A stretch of 47,017 nucleotides of DNA from Gemmatimonadaceae bacterium (GTDB lineage Bacteria; Gemmatimonadota; Gemmatimonadetes; Gemmatimonadales; Gemmatimonadaceae): NCBI GenBank assembly GCA_013697785.1, contig JACCWE010000050.1, forward strand, positions 1 to 47,017. Direction: 5' to 3'. The translations under genes were made by a program, and so were the position numbers. Positions 349 through 4,131 of this stretch are shown here, piece by piece. Below the pieces are notes generated by a model that was given only the letters and a program-made list of their open reading frames with translations, was not told the DNA's origin and searched no databases. Numbering within the stretch: position 1 is the first letter of the stretch; every line of letters begins with the position of its first letter.

Positions 349-1941
349 TCAGCTCGCCGTTACAGCCGGAAGCGTCAGTGTGAAGGTACTTCCCATGTTC
401 GGCCTGCTCTCAGCTTTGAGATCCCCTCCCATTGCACGCGCGAGGTCTCGACTGATCGAAAGCCCCAGCCCGGTACCCTCCTGCGTGCGCGTGAGTGTCG
501 AGTCCAACCGCACAAAGGGTTGAAAAACGCGCTCCAATTGTGCGGCCTCAATACCGTGTCCCGTGTCGATCACCCGCACGGCAAGAATGCCGTCGGCGTG
601 GTCGACACAGTCAAGGGTGATCGACCCGCCGGGCTCTGTGAACTTGATGGCGTTACTGAGGAGGTTGAGCACGATCTGCTGCACCTTCTGTGGGTCTGCG
701 CGAGCGATGAATCGAGAGTCGCAGCCCGCAAAAAGCTGATTCAACTGCTTCGCTCGCGCCTGCGGCGCGACCAGGGCTTCGCATGTCGCCAGCACCTCGG
801 TCATGGGTACATCCTCCGCCGCATAGTCCACCGCGCCCGCCTCGACGCGCGAGTAGTTCAGCACGGAGTTGATCAGGCCCAGCAAATGGCGTTGGCTTTG
901 CTGAATTCGCGCAAGTGCTTTGGCCTGAGCGGGAGTGACGGGACCGTGCACCCCGAGCTCGATGAGTTCCGCATACCCACCGATTGCGTTCAGCGGCGTG
1001 CGGAGTTCATGGCTCATCACTGTCAGAAATTCACCTTTCACGCGGGCCGCGTTCTCCGCGTCGGCGCGCGCTGATTCGGCCTCAACCCAGGATGCACGAG
1101 CGGCCGCATACAAGCGTGCGCTCTCCAAGGCTTGGGCGCAGCGTGCCGCAAGGCCTTCTCCAAACAGCACATCTTCCGGCGAAAACGGCGGAGCATTGGG
1201 CCGGCTTACATAGGTCATTGCGCCGAAGAGCACCTCGTGCGCGATGACGGGCAGCACCAGGAGCGATCCTGCGCCGAGCGATCGAACAATGCTAAGCGTC
1301 TCCTCGTCCCGGGCAGCCATAGAGATCGCGGCGAGCGCGTCGTCGATGATAACCACCGGTGCGCGGTCGCGGGCGATCGCTGGAATTCCGATGAGGTCGT
1401 CGACCGATGGCTTCCACCGACCCGCGAGGGGTAGGACCACATCCTGCTTGTCGTCGTCTGGATGGAGTACGGCGATGCGTCGGAAGCCACCGCCTGCTTC
1501 CACTACGTCAACGACGCACCACGCATCGAGTCCCGGTAGTTCAAGCCCGGCGATGGCGGCGTAGGTGAGCTCCTCGTCGAGAGAGGCGCCGAACCGAAGG
1601 CTAGCATCCGCAAGGAACTGCGCACGTTTCCGCGCGAAGTCGGCCGCCAGGGCCGCGTCGCGGGCTCTGAGCGCGCTGAGCAGTACGCGCTCTGTAACGA
1701 CGAGTAATGAGATTTCGGCGTCGGTCTTGGCAGCAGCTCGCCCGGCGGCTGGCTGCGCTGAAGTCTCATCCGGACTTGAGGTATCCATCGACCCCGGCAG
1801 GAAGTTGTTAAAGCCCGAGAGGGCGTGCGACTGCACGGTAGGACGCGCTCGTTCCGCCGCTTCCCGCGATGCGAACCGCGAAGCCAAGCCTGACGAGCCG
1901 CTTCGTATGGCTCGCCGCGTCGTTCTGAGATATACCAACAT
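349..1941 (-). CDS. GAF-domain sensor histidine kinase
   Basis: Probable cytoplasmic sensor kinase that autophosphorylates a histidine and passes the phosphate to a response regulator. From the first ATG it is 530 residues. A helical region at about 70-110 precedes a GAF-like sensor domain (about 113-277), a helical linker, a HisKA domain with the phosphoacceptor in SHELRTPLNA (His311) and a HATPase_c domain with N box (NLLSNAIKF), G1 box (DTGHGI) and G2 box (GTGLGLSIS). No transmembrane segment or receiver domain is seen. It is the last gene of a leftward operon, 73 bases after the KaiC-like gene. The first 51 residues are low-complexity, and Met52 (base 1788) is an equally plausible start. 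A GGAGG lies about 24 bases before the first ATG, too far for normal initiation. No response regulator gene is in the window, so the partner is unknown. Confidence 0.9.
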   Translation of the reverse strand: MLVYLRTTRRAIRSGSSGLASRFASREAAERARPTVQSHALSGFNNFLPGSMDTSSPDETSAQPAAGRAAAKTDAEISLLVVTERVLLSALRARDAALAADFARKRAQFLADASLRFGASLDEELTYAAIAGLELPGLDAWCVVDVVEAGGGFRRIAVLHPDDDKQDVVLPLAGRWKPSVDDLIGIPAIARDRAPVVIIDDALAAISMAARDEETLSIVRSLGAGSLLVLPVIAHEVLFGAMTYVSRPNAPPFSPEDVLFGEGLAARCAQALESARLYAAARASWVEAESARADAENAARVKGEFLTVMSHELRTPLNAIGGYAELIELGVHGPVTPAQAKALARIQQSQRHLLGLINSVLNYSRVEAGAVDYAAEDVPMTEVLATCEALVAPQARAKQLNQLFAGCDSRFIARADPQKVQQIVLNLLSNAIKFTEPGGSITLDCVDHADGILAVRVIDTGHGIEAAQLERVFQPFVRLDSTLTRTQEGTGLGLSISRDLARAMGGDLKAESRPNMGSTFTLTLPAVTAS

Positions 1942-2014
1942 TGACGGCCAAGACGTCGAGACGTACCTCCTCCGATCGGGCTAGCGCGTTGAGCAGCGTG
2001 ACTTCAGAAATCGC

Positions 2015-3598
2015 TCACTCCAGCGATCCGCTCGCGCGCGTGCCTTGCTCCAGCACTGGAGCGCCGGAGAGGATGCCATGGTACCCACGGAGCGATTCGC
2101 CAACCACGGCTCCCGTTCCGGTAATCTTGTATCTCCGAAAATCTCGACTATGCTGGCTGCGCCGCATTTTAACGACTGCAACAACCTTCTCGAGCGCTCC
2201 ATCTATTTCGACGTAGTGCTGTACGATAATGTCGTCGGTGATGAAGGACACTCGCTCGCCCGTGAACCCGAAGCCTGGTGACATCGTTACCGACTCGAGA
2301 ACCATGAACACGGTGACCCCGGTTGCGGTCAGTGCGCCCACGAGGCGGTAGAGCGACTCGCGAAAGTCCTCTCGAAAGGTAGGTGCGAGTGCTACCTCGA
2401 AGCCGGTCAGCGAGTCAATCACCACGCGTGTCGCACCTATCTCGCGCACCGTCATCAGAATTTCGGCGAGTGTCTCGTCCACCGACAAGTCGAGCGGTCG
2501 CAGGTAGGTGATCCGCAGCTTGTTGGACGCGATCATCGCCTCGTCATTCACCTCGAGCGCGCGGAGGTGGGACAGATAGGCCTGTGGGTACTCCTCAAAC
2601 GCGGCAATCACGACTGCCTCTTCGCGCCGCAATCCATCAGCCGCGAACTGCATCCCGAAGGTGGACTTCCCGGTACCAGTCGGGCCTGCGATTATCACGG
2701 CGTCGCCCGCCGGGATACCGCCGCCCATCATCGCGTCGAGCCCCGGAACTCCGGTGGGCAGACGCGCGTCACTGCGCGGAGGTCCTTTGCGTCGGCCCCA
2801 CTGCTGGTCAGGAATGCGCGGGAAGACCTGCACGCCATCGTCGGTTATCCGGAAGGTGTGGAGCCCCGGCATTTGCGCTTGGCCACGGATCTTGACTGCC
2901 TGCAGCTTCCGGACAACTGAGTTTCTGTCAGTCGCTTGTGTGAGCCAGAGGATGCCGTCCGCAATAGTGAAGAGCGGCTGCCGCTGTTCCTCGTCGGTGT
3001 ACTCCCCGATGAGGAGCGAGGTGACCTCCCACGAGGTAAGATGTAAGGCGAGCCGTTGCACGAAGTGCTCGAGCCCCATTGGCTGCCTTCCCAATGCGGG
3101 ACCTGCCTTGACTCCCATGCCTGCAGACGGGTCGGGCCGAACGGTCCGGAATGAATCGACGACGACAATGCCGGGCTTGCGGCGCTCCACCTCGTCCGTC
3201 ATCCGCGCGAGCACGGCGCCGAGATCCCCCGACAACACCTCTTCGCTCAAATTAACATACCGCACTGCATTGCCGACGCGCTCCTGATCAAAAAAGGCGA
3301 ACTGCTGTTGGTAGCGGAGCATCTTCAGCGTCGGCTCGCCAAGTACCGTGAAGTAGAGCGCCGGCCGCTCGCGCGTTGCATTTGTAAAAAGAATTTGCTG
3401 CGCGAGCGTTGTCTTACCCGAGCCCGGGGATCCTGCCACCATATTAAGCGAAAACTCAGGCAGCCCCCCGCCGAGTACGGCGTCGAGGCCGGGAACGCCT
3501 GTCGACAGGTTACGTAGTATGCGGCGTCCATTGCCCGTCGCACGCGCAGGAGCGGCATTGGTCCGAGACGGCGCTTCTGAATTCGTACTATCGGTCAT
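2015..3598 (-). CDS. double-domain KaiC-like RecA-family ATPase
   Basis: A 527-residue protein with two tandem KaiC domains (about 28-265 and 285-515), the size and layout of cyanobacterial KaiC, which forms ATP-driven hexamers. Domain 1 has Walker A GSPGSGKT (56-63) and Walker B IVVVDS (Asp148). Domain 2 has Walker A GPTGTGKS (305-312), the catalytic glutamate pair (Glu335-Glu336) and VVIDS. Domain 1 has Gly-Glu (87-88) where KaiC usually has Glu-Glu. By recall of Synechococcus KaiC, the phosphosites Ser431/Thr432 align with Ser451/Phe452 here, so at most one remains. No kaiA or kaiB is in the window. Its ATG overlaps the stop of the upstream small gene (ATGA), implying translational coupling, and a histidine kinase follows. 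A clock function is not shown; a switch or timer feeding the kinase is inference. Confidence 0.9.
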   Translation of the reverse strand: MTDSTNSEAPSRTNAAPARATGNGRRILRNLSTGVPGLDAVLGGGLPEFSLNMVAGSPGSGKTTLAQQILFTNATRERPALYFTVLGEPTLKMLRYQQQFAFFDQERVGNAVRYVNLSEEVLSGDLGAVLARMTDEVERRKPGIVVVDSFRTVRPDPSAGMGVKAGPALGRQPMGLEHFVQRLALHLTSWEVTSLLIGEYTDEEQRQPLFTIADGILWLTQATDRNSVVRKLQAVKIRGQAQMPGLHTFRITDDGVQVFPRIPDQQWGRRKGPPRSDARLPTGVPGLDAMMGGGIPAGDAVIIAGPTGTGKSTFGMQFAADGLRREEAVVIAAFEEYPQAYLSHLRALEVNDEAMIASNKLRITYLRPLDLSVDETLAEILMTVREIGATRVVIDSLTGFEVALAPTFREDFRESLYRLVGALTATGVTVFMVLESVTMSPGFGFTGERVSFITDDIIVQHYVEIDGALEKVVAVVKMRRSQHSRDFRRYKITGTGAVVGESLRGYHGILSGAPVLEQGTRASGSLE

Positions 3599-4131
3599 GG
3601 CTCACACGCTTCCGATTGTTGGTTGATAGGCCTACCGGCGTCCAAAGCAGACTGGCCGAGCGCAACCGGACTGCCGGACGTCGGAGACTCCGCGACACTC
3701 AGTTCGAGGATATTTATCGCAAGGTGATAACCAACCAACTGGCCCAGTAGGTCGACGAGCGCGGCGAGCATGGCAACGGCGCCTTGGGTGGTAGCCTCCG
3801 CACCGTGCGCACGCGTGACTTCGGCGAGGCCTGAGACCTGTAATGACGGTGCAAGCGTAGCAGTCACGTCTGCGAGTGACGCATAGTCTTCTCGAGCGCG
3901 TGCTAAAGCGCGACTCACAAGGGCGAGCGAGCCATAGGGGCCGAACCAGCTCCCTAAACCGCCCCCAATGCTTGCCCACATACGCTCGACAGCCTCGACC
4001 AGCGCGCTGGAATCAGCAACATCTGTCGCCCGCGCGAGGAGGCGACGGGCGACATGGCTCGCATCAGGGGTTGATGGCAGGAGAGTTGAACTTGGCGCAG
4101 GCATTAGATCCGAGTCGGGGCCAGAAAGCAA
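3595..4131 (-). CDS. hypothetical helical protein, first gene of the KaiC-kinase operon
   Basis: A 178-residue protein (169 if the second Met, base 4104, is the start) with no family I recognise. It is rich in Ala and Leu and looks mostly helical, with a Gly/aromatic stretch around residues 55-65 (GGGLGSWFGPYG) and a hydrophobic helix near 115-140. It has no signal peptide, cysteine cluster or nucleotide-binding motif. Its TGA overlaps the ATG of the KaiC-like gene by four bases, so the two are very probably co-translated. This suggests, but does not prove, that it partners or regulates the ATPase. Codon use looks real: the frame is open throughout and follows the operon direction. Confidence 0.65.
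   Translation of the reverse strand: MLSGPDSDLMPAPSSTLLPSTPDASHVARRLLARATDVADSSALVEAVERMWASIGGGLGSWFGPYGSLALVSRALARAREDYASLADVTATLAPSLQVSGLAEVTRAHGAEATTQGAVAMLAALVDLLGQLVGYHLAINILELSVAESPTSGSPVALGQSALDAGRPINQQSEACEP

Follow-up and report, generated by a model that had tools for sequence, protein, structure and literature searches.

A Gemmatimonadaceae KaiC homologue with a Ser-Phe site, its conserved upstream partner gene and a linked histidine kinase: a putative signalling module

The window, meaning the whole 47,017-nucleotide stretch analysed here (contig JACCWE010000050.1 of assembly GCA_013697785.1, from a Gemmatimonadaceae bacterium), carries a reverse-strand cluster of three genes. The central one, P0001 (2015..3598, reverse strand; ATG at 3598, TGA at 2017-2015), encodes a KaiC-like two-domain ATPase of 527 amino acids. 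Ahead of it lies P0002, here called X (3595..4131, reverse strand), a small, mostly helical protein. The end of its gene and the start of KaiC share 4 nt (ATGA), in which the X TGA and the KaiC ATG overlap; from its TTG start X has 178 residues, although that start codon is uncertain, and its conserved part covers roughly residues 22-147. Directly downstream of KaiC, Pfam identifies a GAF-HisKA-HATPase_c histidine kinase, P0003 (349..1941, reverse strand), which probably begins at the ATG at 1788 and not at 1941. That ATG comes 19 bases past the TAA (1810-1808) that closes a 68-codon winged-helix domain (1808..2014, reverse strand), read in the same frame as KaiC directly after its TGA. Scanning the operon for promoters and terminators gave no more than chance.

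P0001 has two PF06745 domains (227.7 bits against a cut-off of 26.6), which places it in the KaiC/RecA-like ATPase superfamily. Its predicted structure (mean pLDDT 77) aligns with crystallised KaiC (8zn6_C) over 459 residues, with Z 33.9 and rmsd 3.8. It is a full two-domain KaiC homologue. It scores 147.9 bits with the clock-KaiC equivalog TIGR02655 (cut-off 546.25) and 228.6 bits with PRK09302 (cut-off 408), so that by NCBI's cut-offs it is no clock KaiC. Alignment and family conservation locate the CI Walker A motif GSPGSGKT (residues 56-63; 3410..3433), the CI Walker B motif VVVDSF (145-150; 3149..3166) and the CII Walker A motif GPTGTGKS (305-312; 2663..2686), all on the reverse strand. 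The claim of the original prediction that both domains retain Walker A and B was upheld by alignment, and these motifs are near invariant across the family: the Walker A lysine is present in 90/91 relatives in CI (the remaining one has a gap) and in 91/91 in CII. All 91 also keep K477-M-R479, with the conserved Lys and Arg of the CII KMRG motif (2162..2170, reverse strand). Conservation counts here and below refer to 91 distinct relatives, and gene-order counts to 80 named loci.

In the phmmer alignment with solved KaiC, 'fgftgervSFitd' stands opposite 'HSVTESHISTITD', pairing Ser451 with Ser431, Phe452 with Thr432 (2243..2248, reverse strand) and Thr446 with Thr426 (2261..2263, reverse strand). 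MAFFT alignment of P0001 with 29 relatives (30 homologues in all) gave the same site pairing. Both programs thus bear out the Ser-Phe pair that had been placed at the KaiC Ser431/Thr432 position, and the alignment to characterised KaiC run as a check puts Phe, not Thr, at position 432. Going by its alignment to KaiC, the pair would lie at the subunit interface. Residue 452 is Phe in every one of the 91 distinct relatives. Ser451 is kept in 87 of them (the other four have A, A, W and Y) and residue 446 is Ser or Thr in 89, while positions 447 and 449, between these conserved site residues, vary freely. The clock-KaiC pattern of phosphorylatable residues at both 431 and 432 is therefore absent from P0001, which has Ser451 and then Phe452. 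Judged by its residue, position 432 cannot be phosphorylated in P0001 or in any of the 91 relatives. In Synechococcus elongatus KaiC, Thr432 is the first residue to be phosphorylated, and Thr426 contacts phosphorylated Ser431 and is itself phosphorylated in mutants (PMC2777353). The Phe at 432, in P0001 and all relatives, excludes the ordered Thr432/Ser431 two-step cycle, as the original prediction had proposed. Its further statement that the protein has at most one phosphosite is right for position 432, which cannot take a phosphate, but it overlooked Thr446, the equivalent of Thr426. Ser451 itself could be kept for structure; Ser is also common here in KaiC homologues with a Ser-Tyr site.

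The CI domain has Gly87-Glu88 (3335..3340, reverse strand), in the sequence VLGEP, where KaiC has Glu77-Glu78 in TFEES (phmmer and MAFFT), and the CII domain has the catalytic pair Glu335-Glu336 (2591..2596, reverse strand). This contrast between the domains, already described from the sequence, was recovered by alignment. phmmer opened a one-residue gap at the CI glutamates; the P0001 CI loop thus exceeds that of KaiC by one residue, and Gly87-Glu88 corresponds to Glu77-Glu78 only approximately. Gly87, Glu88, Glu335 and Glu336 are each found in 91/91 relatives. One of the three patterns used to search for relatives contained LGE, which partly biases the LGE tally; 30 loci found by profile, and retrieved without that pattern, confirm LGE in CI. 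Glu77 of KaiC has been named a catalytic glutamate of CI (PMC6549140), and an E77Q/E78Q double mutant of KaiC retains 22% of total ATPase activity (PMC5007536). For a single Gly-Glu, no measured value turned up in the papers searched. The asymmetry of the glutamates is real, but it gives no evidence of a dead CI site, and we rejected that interpretation: one Glu, Walker A, Walker B and K236/R238 are kept in CI in essentially every family member.

The constancy of the site and CI traits across 91 relatives marks them as traits of a conserved family and not an oddity of P0001. Going by their record titles, the relatives belong to Gemmatimonadota, Acidobacteria, Planctomycetes, Verrucomicrobia, Armatimonadetes and Chloroflexi, with several proteobacterial or myxobacterial records; many of these records are metagenome-assembled, and single titles may be wrong. 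Family members are also encoded by named isolates, among them Edaphobacter lichenicola (L102), Acidipila rosea (L128) and Zavarzinella formosa (L103). FastTree support for the family clade is weak (0.49). KaiC homologues that fall into other clades differ from it even within the same phylum, reading SY, SA or ST at the site and LSE, FEE or FED in CI. The genome of P0001 itself encodes, as its third KaiC homologue, a protein of another clade (contig C73, 14867-16258) that has LSEP in CI, FQEN in CII and a Ser-Tyr site; a histidine kinase lies directly behind it, and X is absent.

X matched nothing in Pfam, NCBIfam or PHROGs beyond weak Pfam noise, and a 47-row profile of X found nothing among PDB sequences up to E 1. 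Its predicted structure is mostly helical (pLDDT 84), and assignment to a known fold failed: the best Foldseek match had E 1.6 and the best VIA match Z 5.8, scattered over unrelated helical proteins. KaiA was absent among these fold-search matches, though X may still resemble it. Fusion of X to other domains was also discounted, since the long frames around X at six loci contained only a single Pfam domain, a receiver at one locus.

In 79/80 named loci the gene immediately upstream of KaiC, and on its strand, is X; the one remaining locus begins at a contig end. The KaiC start overlaps the X stop in frame by exactly four bases (ATGA or GTGA) at 56/80 loci, an upper bound because the nearest possible KaiC start was chosen. 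Among 395 Gemmatimonadota genomes the KaiC profile (E 1e-120) matched in 61 and X in 51; on comparison by eye of the two locus tables, 49/53 X loci adjoin a KaiC of this family, and X is beside 47/50 high-scoring KaiC loci versus 0/19 lower-scoring, more distant KaiC homologues. Nine genomes reached through other loci give a similar picture, X adjoining 9/9 family members versus 1/11 other homologues. This linkage of X and KaiC across genomes is the strongest new result of the analysis. The P0001 locus has the full set of features by which we define the X-KaiC-histidine kinase module (X directly upstream on the same strand, Phe at 432, LGE in CI). Variants of the arrangement were also seen. 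In Acidipila rosea two X genes lie about 3 kb apart with one family KaiC between them (G400:C1:958066-961870). The genome of P0001 carries a second X-KaiC-histidine kinase cassette (G000:C24:27843-29506; L050, 5119-7190), whose KaiC has an in-frame loss of about 80 CI residues, starting just past Walker A and ending with the Walker B Asp, which would leave its CI inactive; its CII, winged helix and kinase look intact.

Sequence sufficed to test 69 loci for a kinase, and at 51 of them a histidine kinase gene directly follows KaiC. At the others, about a quarter, no kinase was recognised in that place; some have other PAS/GAF signalling proteins there, and one a phosphoesterase. At one locus of this kind, from an Armatimonadetes record (L091, 5742-7592), the place of the kinase behind X and KaiC is taken by a protein that combines PAS and GAF with a SpoIIE-type phosphatase domain. 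The window has the gene order that defines the kaiC-histidine kinase operons of PMC3164672, with the kinase gene directly after kaiC. A further mark of that operon group is a kinase with a KaiB/SasA-like N-terminal module (RtaNt). Ahead of the P0003 kinase core, a Pfam search, which had no RtaNt profile to draw on, finds only a GAF domain and no KaiB domain.

We interpret X, KaiC and the histidine kinase as a signalling module, in which a KaiC ring with a single-site phosphoswitch is coupled to a sensor kinase and does not run a two-step clock, a reading whose chances we consider about even. X almost always upstream, a kinase usually downstream and one remaining timer residue make a signalling switch likelier than a clock. 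A possible switch had been suggested from the sequence, and the loss of the clock cycle and the conserved partner genes fit that suggestion, with phosphorylation itself putative. KaiC would most likely assemble into a double-ring hexamer whose two ATPase layers both work. The CII layer would autophosphorylate on Ser451 only, though the phosphate might also come to rest on Ser/Thr446; there would then be two main KaiC states versus the four of the clock cycle. Gene order suggests that X is a probable binding partner that sets or reads the KaiC state, in the place held by KaiA and KaiB in the clock, and that this state may be passed to the adjacent sensor kinase; the three genes are presumably co-transcribed. 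In members with a winged helix the state might pass straight to DNA. With neighbours so conserved, X is likely to be a direct partner and the kinase an output.

A more ambitious version gives X a larger role: dedicated to regulating a single-site KaiC phosphoswitch that is widespread, it would be an independently evolved counterpart of KaiA/KaiB, which would set the state of Ser451 and relay it to the linked kinase, in a previously undescribed control system of many phyla. We offer this only tentatively.

The ring might instead signal by its ATP/ADP-dependent shape alone, as a pure nucleotide-state ATPase switch in which Ser451 and Thr446 are never phosphorylated. The invariant Phe452 is aromatic and may fill the phosphosite pocket, four of the 91 members do without Ser451, and the ATPase motifs of both domains hardly vary. 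Against it, Ser451 and Ser/Thr446 are kept amid variable neighbours, and both CII glutamates are invariant while CI has a single one. We regard it as possible but somewhat doubtful; the conserved Ser451 and Ser/Thr446 together with an intact CII active site make a one-phosphate switch the most likely use of the site.

The winged helix raises the prospect that KaiC regulates transcription itself, with the tail binding DNA and the ring gating that binding. A C-terminal winged helix is fused to KaiC in 20/80 relatives, and two of three such tails tested pass the Pfam cut-off as MarR_2 or TrmB. The window still holds the domain in frame behind the TGA, where it matches the profile of the relatives' tails at E 1.5e-12. 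The other 60/80 members lack such a tail, however, and a search past their stop codons revealed none, while in P0001 itself the tail is cut off by the stop; we consider this role improbable. The split tail was seen in this window only, among the relatives examined, and the tail is fused in the nearest relative of the set (L055, 74% identical). An in-frame winged helix past the TGA, fused in relatives, indicates that the P0001 copy is truncated or misassembled, and the stop would be a recent mutation, an assembly error or a site of readthrough. Recoding of TGA was considered unlikely, as TGA also terminates the neighbouring X gene.

It is very improbable that the protein works as a circadian or hourglass timer in the manner of KaiABC or KaiBC, timed by Ser451 alone and drawing on a KaiB from elsewhere in the genome: KaiB occurs somewhere in 13 of 39 genomes with the X-KaiC family but is absent from the other 26, the Thr432 equivalent is lost in all members, and the authors of PMC3164672 consider a cycle unlikely in KaiCs unable to phosphorylate two residues. 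No KaiB (PF07689) was found in the genome of P0001, which is 100% complete by its listing, while the S. elongatus control matched. KaiB was seen near the family in a single case, about 4 kb from an X-KaiC pair (G008:C16:200522-206571).

The signalling module that we favour can be set beside known systems. P0001 resembles S. elongatus KaiC (KaiC1 type) in its two RecA-fold domains, Walker motifs, CII Glu-Glu, Ser431 and Thr426 equivalents, and fold over about 460 residues. It differs in its structure-aligned identity of only about 25-27%, its Phe for Thr432, its CI Gly-Glu with the longer loop, and a genome without KaiB. Non-cyanobacterial KaiC is also known from the KaiC2 and KaiC3 types and from the KaiBC systems of Rhodopseudomonas and Legionella (PMC5520375). 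Unlike P0001, cyanobacterial KaiC2 and KaiC3 retain two phosphorylatable residues, SS or ST, with Tyr in some KaiC3 (PMC5520375). Another likeness is to the systems of a 2011 Ramlibacter tataouinensis paper, which, in the part accessible, reports kaiC-histidine kinase operons without kaiB and lists SF among the site types (PMC3164672); the window likewise has an SF site and a KaiC gene followed by a sensor kinase gene. The site and the kinase linkage are accordingly not new. The upstream X and the winged-helix tail are absent from the description in that part of the paper, and the likeness does not imply that the proteins belong to one family. In a literature search that missed most subscription journals, neither X nor the winged-helix fusion was found described, and nothing relevant emerged on KaiC from Gemmatimonadetes or Verrucomicrobia.

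The abstract of PMC10076222 regards KaiC as predating the clock that rests on it. A KaiC family that is widespread, has lost the Thr432 step but retains the equivalents of Ser431 and Thr426, and has its own small partner and kinase would show a non-clock role of KaiC rings, and X, KaiC and the kinase make a simple three-protein system in which non-clock KaiC function can be tested.
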